From: Pegethrix bostrychoides GSE-TBD4-15B
Lineage (GTDB): Bacteria > Cyanobacteriota > Cyanobacteriia > Elainellales > Elainellaceae
NCBI GenBank assembly: GCA_019359155.1
Contig: JAHHHV010000066.1
Span: 62,001-126,000 of the forward strand
Direction of reading: 5' to 3'
Length of the DNA stretch: 64,000 nt
Shown: piece after piece, positions 61,280 through 64,000 of the stretch
How positions within the stretch are numbered: position 1 is the stretch's first letter
Layout: the number at the start of each line of letters is the position of its first letter
Translations under genes and position numbers: made by a program
Notes under the pieces: model-generated
Told to the model about the DNA's origin: nothing
Seen by the model: only the letters and a program-made list of their open reading frames with translations
The model's database searches: none

Positions 61280-61879
61280 CTAGCCCCTTTCTGTTTCTAC
61301 GGGCGGTGATGGCTCTAGCGCCACGTCTTCGTAAACTGCTGCTAGCGTGGCTTCAAATTGAATGCTCTGGAGCTGAAACTGCTGCTGTTCGGCCCTGTAA
61401 AGTTGCAGTATCCATTGCCCTTCGGCGTTGCGGCGAAAGCATTCGATCTGCTGTCGTCTGGTGTTAATCAAAACATATTCTTGCAGGCTGTCTAGTTTCA
61501 TGTAGTCGAAAAATTTATCGCCCCGATCAAAGGCTTCGGTGGAGTCGGAGAGCACTTCCACAATCAGAGTTGGGTGCTGTTTATAGGTGGACGTGGCCTG
61601 ATCGCGCGGGTCGCAGGTGACGAGGATATCGGGGTAGTAAAACCGATTCAGCGACTCGATTCTTGCCTTCATGTCGGCAATGTAAACGCGACAGCCGCTG
61701 CCTCGAACGTGACTCCGCAGCAGCGCAAACAAATTTCCAGTCACCGTAACGTGTGCATCGCTAGCCCCAGCCATCGCGTAGACCTGCCCATCGATGTATT
61801 CGTGTTTGATGGGGCTGTTTGACTCAAGCTGAAGGTATTCGTCGGGCGTGAGGTGGGAGTGGCTGGGAGAGACAATCAT
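61280..61879 (-). CDS. Uma2 family (DUF820) endonuclease-like protein
   Basis: The product is 199 residues. The core is complete: LTPDEYLQLESNSPIKHEYI, GQVYAMAGASDAHVTVTGNL, YYPDILVTCDPRD with the Asp and PTLIVEVLSDSTEAFDRGDK with the Glu and Lys. It ends with the GQWIL-type strand and a short acidic tail. It is the commoner short Uma2 form in cyanobacteria. Function is unknown. It is 600 bases from the decayed locus and NACHT gene that follow. Confidence 0.95.
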   Translation of the reverse strand: MIVSPSHSHLTPDEYLQLESNSPIKHEYIDGQVYAMAGASDAHVTVTGNLFALLRSHVRGSGCRVYIADMKARIESLNRFYYPDILVTCDPRDQATSTYKQHPTLIVEVLSDSTEAFDRGDKFFDYMKLDSLQEYVLINTRRQQIECFRRNAEGQWILQLYRAEQQQFQLQSIQFEATLAAVYEDVALEPSPPVETERG

Positions 61880-62037: not shown

Positions 62038-62432
62038 ATGGTAAACCCGTTGACCTTGATGGCTGGCGCGCTTGCGAAATTGGCGTTTGATGAGGTTTGT
62101 TCAGTCGGGCGCAGGCGGGATGGCGAAGCAGTCGGTGGGTGGTGGCAACCGATTTCAAGACTGGTTCACAAGACTCTATAATTTTCCAAAAAACTGGAGA
62201 ATCACATTGATGCGATTTGGTACTTCGTTCACCCCTACAACTCATCCTTACTTGTTTAGGAATACCTCTATATGAAAGCGATCTGAGTGCTTTGAAGATT
62301 GTCTTTCCAGCGATCGATCTACGCTACTGGATATCACAACTCAAGTCTCAATTGATTGCTTCTGGTCACGAATCTCTGAACGAGATCGGCACAGAACTTG
62401 GAACCAGATTAGTTCGATTGAGTAATACCTGA
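62038..62432 (+). pseudogene. Decayed plus-strand gene, N- and C-terminal fragments
   Basis: From the ATG at 62038 the frame reads MVNPLTLMAGALAKLAFDE. Past about 62093 a coherent continuation is found only in another frame (FVQSGAGGMAKQSVG). The opening resembles the N-terminal segment (NPLTLxAGAxAxLAF) used by several large cyanobacterial multidomain proteins. A later frame (about 62270-62432) reads SDLSALKIVFPAIDLRYWIS and ends TELGTRLVRLSNT, which looks like a real C-terminus. The parts are not in one frame, so I infer a frameshifted, internally deleted gene. The family is unknown. Confidence 0.35.
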
Positions 62433-62486
62433 GGATATAGATTAATTCCCTCCCAACCCTCAATCCTGCGAGCTTCCAGAACTCTC

Positions 62487-62512
62487 AAAGTCTCCTAATT
62501 CTAAGGGACTTA
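62487..62512. repeat. AAGTC-type hairpin repeat near the NACHT gene end
   Basis: AAGTCTCC and GGGACTT form a short stem around about 8 bases, followed by AGGGGGC. It resembles the hairpin arms at 46123-46162 (AAAGTCTCC / GGGACTTT). Confidence 0.45.
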
Positions 62513-62552
62513 GGGGGCTACCAAAGCTTGAAACGCTCAGGACTAGCTCGTG

Positions 62553-64000
62553 CTACAGTCCACAAGTCTCTGCGCGAGAAAAGAGATGCACACACAACAC
62601 CTTTAACAAGAAACTAAAACCCCCACTAGGAAGTTCTCCGACGAGAGAGTTTGGAAGATCGAAACTGAGGTTTTCGTATCTCCTAAATTCGTTGTCCCTA
62701 CGCCACCCAACGCGATCGAAAAACTCGCGCCAGTCCTCCAAATTGTAAGTCTTTGGGCTACCAAATTCTTGCCAGATCTGCTTCTGGACGCTAAAGCCCC
62801 ATTTACCGTTGCTATGTTCAACCCACAGCCGATCAATCGTCACTAGTTCTTTGCAGGGGAAGCTAAGTATGTCGTCTACTGAGAAAATGTCGCCAATTTC
62901 TTTGCCAACTGTGGTGATCATCAGCTCATAGGTTTCTCGATCCGCTGCTTTCCATTCAGCATTGGTTAGCATGTTCTCCAATGGTTGAAACCGAGCAGTT
63001 GTGATCTCGTTCACCAGCGCTGGATTGAGGCGGCGGCGTTGGGTATTGGTGCTGTCGCGCCAGCAGTCGTAGGCTAAATGAACGTACTGCTGATCTAGCG
63101 CTGCTCGCAATAGCGATATCGGATCAATCTGCGCTGCATAAAGCCGAATTGTGGAGTACCAAAACGGTTCATTCAGATGCGGATAGAGCAAAGCCTCTTG
63201 CCGCAAGCGCTTGACTTCCGCCGCCGCCAAATACTCCTGAAAGCTAAGGTGGGTAAACTCATACTCTTCCGGTTCGCGTTCCACTAGCAATTCGCTCACC
63301 TGCACAATCTGCTCCAAGAAATCTTCGGGATGCACAGTTTCATCCTGCTGCGCTAAATGCTGAGCCAACAGCGGCAGCAATTCCTGCTTCGAGATCTGCT
63401 CTAGCTGACGCTGCATCATCTCCAGCGCCAAACCCTGAAGCACAACCTGCCGCTCGTCGGCTTCCAGCAATAGCTCAACATTGCGAGCATTTGGGCGGTT
63501 TCGGAGCTGAAGCGTGCAAATTTCTTGATACAGCTCAGCCCGACGGCGTGGCAGTTCAGCGCTGGGGTTAGTGCGGTGAAACGTGGCGATCATATTCAAG
63601 ATCAGCGGATTTTTCGCCATGTCCCTCAGCTCTTGGCGGCGATCAATCTGTTCCAGCAAATCAGCGGCGTTGCGATTCGCCTGCTGCTCCACATCTAGCG
63701 TGTTGCGTCCGCCTCTGGCATAGCGCTCCTGACAGAGATACCACTGCCGCACAAATTTCTGTCGCTGCTCCCGGTTAAACGCCTGCACAAATAAAGCCGT
63801 GCGCGGCTTCTCGCCCACGTATAGCTCATAGCCCCCCGGACGCGAACTAAGCAAAAACACCGACTCGCTATATTGCCGCATCTGAGCGCTAATCCACTGG
63901 CTGACGGCTTTTCGTTCGTGGTCAGCTACCTCATCAAAGCCATCTAGCATCACCAGCGCTCGCCCAGCTTCCAGCAGATTCACTGCCCAATTCGGCGGTA
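62553..64000 (-). CDS. NACHT NTPase with C-terminal GUN4 domain (5' end beyond window)
   Basis: The frame is open to base 64000, so the N-terminus and Walker A lie outside; about 482 residues are visible. It starts in the NACHT domain with Walker B and the following acidic residues (GRALVMLDGFDEVADHERK), then LLSSRPGGYEL, the NPLILNMIATFHR helical segment and TLQLRNR. The FTHLSFQEYLAAAEVKRLRQ motif ends the NACHT-associated region. The C-terminal 130 residues are GUN4-like: LENMLTNAEWKAADRETYEL, FPCKELVTIDRLWVEHSNGK, WGFSVQKQIW and FFDRVGWR. GUN4 binds Mg-protoporphyrin and other tetrapyrroles. NACHT NTPases are signal-transducing switches, several of which act in antiphage defence. Fusion of the two suggests a switch whose sensor is a tetrapyrrole-binding module; that is inference. 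Confidence 0.93.
   Translation of the reverse strand, partial: PPNWAVNLLEAGRALVMLDGFDEVADHERKAVSQWISAQMRQYSESVFLLSSRPGGYELYVGEKPRTALFVQAFNREQRQKFVRQWYLCQERYARGGRNTLDVEQQANRNAADLLEQIDRRQELRDMAKNPLILNMIATFHRTNPSAELPRRRAELYQEICTLQLRNRPNARNVELLLEADERQVVLQGLALEMMQRQLEQISKQELLPLLAQHLAQQDETVHPEDFLEQIVQVSELLVEREPEEYEFTHLSFQEYLAAAEVKRLRQEALLYPHLNEPFWYSTIRLYAAQIDPISLLRAALDQQYVHLAYDCWRDSTNTQRRRLNPALVNEITTARFQPLENMLTNAEWKAADRETYELMITTVGKEIGDIFSVDDILSFPCKELVTIDRLWVEHSNGKWGFSVQKQIWQEFGSPKTYNLEDWREFFDRVGWRRDNEFRRYENLSFDLPNSLVGELPSGGFSFLLKVLCVHLFSRAETCGL

Follow-up and report, generated by a model that had tools for sequence, protein, structure and literature searches.

A membrane-anchored NACHT protein with a C-terminal GUN4 domain

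The window, a 64,000-nucleotide stretch of DNA from the cyanobacterium Pegethrix bostrychoides GSE-TBD4-15B (G000:C68:62001-126000), ends within a minus-strand gene whose start codon lies outside it. Its reading frame continues past position 64000 and encodes a protein of 756 residues. The features of the locus, in window coordinates, are as follows.

62553..64000, minus strand: portion of the TM-NACHT-GUN4 gene inside the window; the start codon is beyond the edge
62553..64823 (L007:8553-10823), minus strand: whole TM-NACHT-GUN4 gene, 756 aa
63741..64000, minus strand: visible part of the NACHT domain (whole domain, residues 206-361; Pfam PF05729, 60.9 bits)
64191-64217, minus strand, outside the window: Walker A motif AWGGYGKTT, residues 203-211
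62625..62999, minus strand: GUN4 core, residues 609-733 (Pfam PF05419, 116.7 bits)
62628-62639, minus strand: conserved GELP codons at the end of the GUN4 core
62586..62627, minus strand: hypervariable tail of 42 nt, agtgggggttttagtttcttgttaaaggtgttgtgtgtgcat, in place of the canonical GUN4 LxNxLR segment
62520..62585, minus strand: R1, the conserved 3' DNA element (E 7.6e-17), with one stop per reading frame
62553-62555, minus strand: TAG stop codon of the NACHT-GUN4 gene, inside R1
62400..62519, minus strand: expected place of the distal module half (GCGATCCGTTACCTGGCACC) and then of a convergent Y1 transposase, both missing

The motifs LVMLDGFDE (63930-63956), SSRPGG (63831-63848), and HLSFQEYL (63228-63251) and the GUN4 sequence of the earlier reading are all read from the minus strand, and both domains that had been claimed from the letters alone, a NACHT core and a C-terminal GUN4, were recovered with Pfam. 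The visible part by itself scored 117.5 bits for GUN4 against a cut-off of 29.2 and 32.9 bits for NACHT against a cut-off of 26.7, and the full-length protein was again above both cut-offs, at 116.7 and 60.9 bits, respectively. The sequence-only reading had proposed a search for Walker A beyond position 64000, and the motif is present there, with alanine replacing its first glycine. Walker A and Walker B (LVMLDGFDE) both being there, the window protein belongs to the NACHT/STAND proteins. An N-terminal effector had also been placed past the window edge; an N-terminal domain could indeed be read, but it is a membrane segment, hydrophobic over residues ∼40 to 75 with a peak at 53 to 75 and a weaker stretch before it, and no TIR, protease, or nuclease was found upstream of NACHT. 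This membrane segment is the N-terminal output part of the protein, which ends in GUN4 and would work as a membrane-anchored switch of the NACHT (STAND) type. Full-length relatives with 45 to 57% identity occur in many cyanobacterial genera, and the architecture is therefore not due to chance.

The gene is surrounded by rpsD, a HerA-type ATPase, Uma2, and glycogen phosphorylase, and no defense island, the setting raised in the sequence-only reading, is obvious around it. We found no neighborhood shared among the NACHT-GUN4 relatives, the only conserved neighbor of the operon type being a Y1 transposase gene. Of the curated antiphage families in NCBIfam, DS8 and EruA scored 26 to 27 bits with the window protein against cut-offs of 790 and 1000, and in PADLOC the protein was matched by PD-T4-6 alone, through its GUN4 end (profile PDLC04062, P0001 residues 571-734). 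This profile probably includes kinase-GUN4 proteins and may give false calls in cyanobacteria. Part of the Uma2-family gene behind the locus (window 61280-61879, minus strand) has a 70% identical copy elsewhere in the genome. A second GUN4 fusion, which carries no tail and is possibly a separate system, follows the genes of a protein of 818 aa and an ATPase of 445 aa (L009:3423-8576).

The end of the GUN4 domain and tetrapyrrole binding

By sequence, the tailed GUN4 domains are like canonical GUN4, the Mg-chelatase cofactor (PDB 1Y6I and 1Z3X), in their core, where the W/S/G/Q residues and GxLP are retained. They differ in having no LxNxLR end, and the domain in the window is in addition without GUN4_N, fused to NACHT, and followed by a hypervariable tail. 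In canonical GUN4, LxNxLR follows GHLP and adjoins the bilin; its asparagine is required for bilin binding and has been lost in all GUN4 paralogues (PMC10156173), and its arginine has an important part in the binding of porphyrin (PMC8967248). In the same genome, canonical GUN4 (L008:7157-7888) has LSNQLR at this position (LPLSNQLR), and the window protein has SGGFSF (LPSGGFSF). When 30 tailed GUN4 domains were aligned with canonical GUN4, the core was conserved up to G-x-L/F-P and nothing was conserved thereafter until the last residues, LxNxLR being missing from all 30.

These observations bear on the reading of the locus as a pigment sensor, in which tetrapyrrole binding by GUN4 would set the NACHT switch according to the state of the pigments, whether photosynthetic or altered by phage, and the tail would be irrelevant. 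The idea that GUN4 senses tetrapyrroles for fused effectors has already been published (PMC7159879), the core is conserved and far above the Pfam cut-off, and among solved structures the best relatives are GUN4 proteins that bind tetrapyrroles. However, with LxNxLR gone, an element tied to bilin and through its arginine to porphyrin, and with nothing conserved after GxLP, the sensing of tetrapyrrole status advanced in the sequence-only reading is unsupported, and pigment gating would leave both the hypervariable tail and the conserved 3' module described below without a reason. The loss of ligand contacts is thus real as far as LxNxLR is concerned, but porphyrin could still bind through the remaining core, since an Asn-to-Gly GUN4 mutant retained porphyrin. 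We consider a pigment-gated switch unlikely.

Fusions of GUN4 to kinases, caspases, trypsin, and TIR and its presence in ternary conflict systems have been described (PMC7159879, PMC8195603, PMC2853523), and these are the same fusions as the ones seen here. In the portions of these papers available to us, GUN4 is treated as a tetrapyrrole sensor or effector domain and neither tail hypervariation nor a transposase linkage is mentioned. We also found no open paper on GUN4 hypervariability or on a link between GUN4 and a Y1 transposase.

Hypervariable tails between conserved flanks

The coding sequence passes the GUN4 fold into a tail that is wholly different between relatives, and the stop codon lies within a conserved DNA element. 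The C-termini of the relatives form three unlike strings, LLSHRDL, LFSRAETCEL, and SSLAQRLVNCSTSQ, which are translations of one conserved DNA sequence in three frames, and the segment of variable length sits between the GxLP codons and this element, R1. Such a hypervariable end, of 20 to 90 nt, is found throughout Cyanobacteriia on GUN4 domains that are joined to NACHT, TIR, caspase, kinase, or trypsin modules, the modules N-terminal to tailed GUN4 being TIR, TIR-NACHT, caspase, protein kinase, and trypsin.

We built a model of R1 from its sequence alone and searched 390 Cyanobacteriia genomes from 160 genera. The element is present in 153 of the genomes and in 73 of the genera, at 1 to 6 copies per genome, and a GUN4 domain precedes nearly all of the copies that were read. 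A stop in every frame occurs within 74 nt in 81 of 84 copies, compared with 31 ± 4 after shuffling, and these three-frame stops stand at fixed positions (23, 30, 37, or 46). A site resembling TACCTGGCAC was observed behind 51 of 82 copies, 47 of these sites being 111 to 113 nt from the element start, and in none of 83 control windows; the distal module half of the relatives, GCGATCCGTTACCTGGCACC, lies ∼112 nt from the element start. No conserved RNA fold, hairpin, or base pairs could be detected in R1, Rfam gave no match for it, and no pattern of its type was found in viral contigs or in a plasmid collection.

The 77 tails that we collected have a median length of 50 nt, with 28, 16, and 33 of them in the three length classes modulo 3. 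Their composition is strongly skewed (A,.15; C,.10; G,.415; T,.34), G and T making up 75% of the bases, and it is alike at all three codon positions, without codon periodicity. In-frame stops are found at 6 of 1382 codons versus 64 of 1354 and 63 of 1338 in the other two frames, with ∼5% expected, which amounts to an approximately 10-fold depletion. As the uniformity across codon positions and the depletion of in-frame stops indicate, tail DNA looks random and blind to frame even though it is translated and kept open by selection. The G/T bias could come from selection for hydrophobic tails rich in Gly, Val, Leu, and Trp, although the uniform codon positions argue against this.

Comparisons between species or paralogues, with one genome per species, gave 14 pairs with related bodies. 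In these pairs, the bodies are.75 to.90 identical and the elements.77 to 1.00, and in 12 of the 14 the similarity of the tails does not exceed that of shuffled sequences. The pair L113 and L114 has identical 60-nt elements and bodies that are 89% identical, with unrelated tails of 59 and 83 nt. Hypervariability is confined between conserved flanks.

We asked whether the tail could be an unconstrained, fast-drifting C-terminus and R1 an ordinary 3' regulatory or RNA element, with no targeting involved. C-termini are commonly variable, and R1 is also seen behind genes with no transposase nearby. Drift would, however, have to bring the tails down to shuffled-level similarity between two flanks that are.75 to 1.00 identical and give them a strand-specific G/T make-up unlike either flank, and the 10-fold depletion of in-frame stops means that the tail is under selection. 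The three-frame stops at fixed positions likewise speak against this explanation, as does the lack of an RNA fold and of an Rfam match for R1, and we regard it as quite improbable.

The tail could in principle also be the work of a diversity-generating retroelement (DGR), with a reverse transcriptase rewriting it in trans from a template repeat. Cyanobacterial DGRs vary the C-termini of similar signaling proteins (PMC7517822, PMC10907252) and, together with those of multicellular bacteria, are like the present case in the localized hypervariation of signaling and conflict proteins, in the conserved 3' DNA, and in possible action in trans; the window's genome has a DGR-like reverse transcriptase with Avd-like and FGE genes. 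However, DGRs substitute at template adenines and keep the length constant, whereas the tails vary in length and frame and have no adenine-directed substitution. Neither a genomic donor nor a template repeat was found for the two tails tested, those of G000 (the window's genome) and G183, and paralogues within one genome have no common template. The scaffold is GUN4 instead of a C-type lectin, the linked enzyme is an HUH transposase with no linked reverse transcriptase, and the reverse transcriptase locus has its own candidate targets with FGE domains. A DGR is thus very improbable, and we rejected it for the tail on the grounds of variable length, variable frame, and the missing template in G000 and G183. 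The reverse transcriptase locus itself (L073:396-7829, G000:C44) holds a MoxR ATPase, a vWA protein, FGE-domain proteins, an HNH protein, an Avd-like protein, and the 370-aa reverse transcriptase.

In the tails at L148, L156, L018, and L186, we observed short duplications of the left flank, of the element start, or of internal repeats (CACCTATGGGACACCTCCCT occurs twice), hinting at slippage or repeated opening. Boundary duplications are not a general feature of the tails, 3 of 77 sharing at least 8 nt with each side. AlphaFold models of GUN4 with its tail and of the full protein, from two input sequences, gave pLDDT values of 38 and 32, too low for use; to judge from the alignment, the tail would lie at the GUN4 cleft.

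A linked Y1 transposase and a proposed diversification system

When the neighboring genes were clustered, a single one recurred. It encodes a Y1/HUH transposase and adjoins the module on its far side in convergent orientation. The linked enzyme P0002 has 260 residues, matches Pfam Y1_Tnp (PF01797) with 68.4 bits, and has the HUH motif NHVH and the tyrosine context YIHANP; going by these motifs, it appears to resemble TnpA-REP class 2 of PMC6006769. The NHVH and YIHANP motifs, the Y1_Tnp domain, and a low copy number are common to P0002 and the RAYT/TnpA-REP enzymes that go with REP palindromes (PMC6006769, PMC3116915), but the enzyme here is tied to the 3' end of one gene and not to dispersed palindromic repeats. 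Unlike classical REP sites, R1 has no conserved hairpin, and REP hairpins were not found flanking P0002; some published TnpA-REP subclasses are also without REPs (PMC6006769).

R1 was found in 48 of the 50 genomes with a strong transposase copy and in 105 of the 340 others (p ∼1e-19), and at least 34 of 60 strong copies are convergent, 47 to 279 nt from an R1 among those listed. The distal TACCTGGCAC site also goes with a local transposase or its remnant (34 of 39 versus 15 of 39 without). Many of the transposase copies are broken or fragments, and since no strong copy was detected in 105 R1-positive genomes, that of the window included, the enzyme is not needed for keeping a tail; it could work in trans, could be incidental, or could have disappeared from these genomes. 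At L041:2220-2330, the tail and the R1 core are gone and GEFP codons are joined straight to the distal module half, with the convergent Y1 gene intact; this copy is a deletion derivative.

The same linkage could be read as that of a mobile element made up of R1 and the Y1 gene, with the 3' ends of GUN4 genes as its insertion site; the tails would then be scars left by repeated insertion and excision, and no system would be kept for diversity. Such an element would account for the many fragmentary transposase copies, for the partial flank copies in tails such as L148, L018, and L156, and for the junction at L041. The purging of stops and a three-frame stop module kept over 73 genera, however, imply use by the host gene, insertion at GUN4 only would demand strict targeting, and the arrangement recurs with other hypervariable genes, as described next. 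We consider the mobile-element explanation rather unlikely.

In the small genomes of another family (f2), relatives of the enzyme are convergent behind unrelated genes that have conserved bodies, unrelated 3' tails, and the TACCTGGCAC site. These genes code for an outer-membrane-like protein and for precursors whose leaders, as in prochlorosins, are of the Nif11 type. The near-identical paralogues L175 and L176 of genome G156 have both flanks in common and differ over the 60 to 120 nt between them, and the TACCTGGCAC site is present there. A convergent enzyme behind a gene with a conserved body and a hypervariable 3' end is therefore seen for GUN4 and for the f2 targets, and not for the window copy. 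The f2 tails are not obviously G/T-rich, and the two settings may differ.

The outer-membrane-like genes at L173-L176, L180, and L182, of which there are several paralogues per genome, share NRDVRVHD and then run into tails that are unrelated to one another; a Y1 transposase gene faces them from ∼300 nt behind. At L177, L178, and L179, Nif11/prochlorosin-like and other precursor-peptide genes with a variable core each have a convergent Y1 transposase. This second arrangement matches a preprint (Laurenceau et al., bioRxiv 10.1101/2020.03.09.984088) which, as cited in PMC10783134, associates TnpA-REP genes with lanthipeptides (prochlorosins) in marine picocyanobacteria. As far as the citing paper conveys it, the same Y1/HUH class stands there beside genes with conserved bodies and hypervariable ends, whereas the targets here are of the immune or cell-death type (NACHT, TIR, caspase, kinase, and trypsin with GUN4) and come with a 3' module that has stops in all frames and with G/T-rich, frame-blind tails.

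We propose, with a probability of roughly 60%, that a targeted diversification system, common in Cyanobacteriia, rewrites the tails of receptors and that GUN4 is the scaffold for a varied recognition segment. In such a system, the last ligand-determining part of GUN4 would have been replaced by the short hypervariable tail, 20 to 90 nt of G/T-rich and apparently untemplated DNA being put in, or exchanged, at the junction of the GxLP codons with the 3' module. The module would end translation in whatever frame results, and it has the TACCTGGCAC site at a fixed spacing. A TnpA-REP-like HUH (Y1) transposase, whose gene usually stands convergent to the module and just behind it and otherwise at another place in the genome, probably recognizes the module and nicks one strand, and rewriting of the tail would start from this break. 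Tails with in-frame stops would be purged by selection, and receptors of differing specificity would arise from the varied tails that TIR, caspase, kinase, protease, and NACHT proteins carry. Untemplated addition is suggested by the lack of a donor in G000 and G183 together with the G/T-rich make-up; G/T-rich DNA seldom yields stop codons. Because the tail sits at the ligand-determining end, the GUN4 fold may scaffold a variable recognition surface, in a role that may be like that of the C-type lectin fold in the DGRs of conflict systems (PMC10907252). By their domain content, the tailed GUN4 proteins may function as immune receptors.

A more specific form of this proposal, which we put forward tentatively, is an active non-retroelement system in which a domesticated HUH transposase reopens the 3' ends of immune-type receptor genes at the conserved module, untemplated G/T-rich nucleotides are added, and the three-frame stop closes the gene. 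The binding face of GUN4 would in effect display a library of random peptides, a loose parallel to the N-region addition seen in the antigen receptors of vertebrates. We know of no described diversity system with this mode of action; the one known precedent, taken from the paper citing the preprint, is the lanthipeptide association, with the same enzyme class and other targets. If that preprint, which we know through its citation, already shows tail rewriting of this kind, the system described here would be a variant of it.

Should the proposal be true, bacteria would have a second route besides DGRs to randomize part of their immune or cell-death receptors, one that relies on a nuclease resembling a transposase and apparently needs no template. 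The fusion of GUN4 to many types of cyanobacterial effectors would then be explained, with GUN4 as the carrier of a variable tip and not as a pigment sensor, and TnpA-REP enzymes would gain a job and a tie to hypervariable lanthipeptides. There would also be a compact natural system for peptide diversity in vivo, testable in laboratory strains by sequencing one locus.

The window copy is probably orphaned or frozen and no longer rewritten, since its module has lost the distal half, it has no Y1 gene next to it, and none of this enzyme family is found in the genome, where a search for Y1 relatives returned only an IS200-type TnpA of 137 aa and a broken copy. Another locus (L142:2652-12583) has, within 10 kb, two related tailed GUN4 genes, a single Y1 gene, and a third copy of the element accompanied by a GUN4-like remnant. 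The bodies there are related and the tails unrelated, and the third tail region is rich in G/C, not in G/T.
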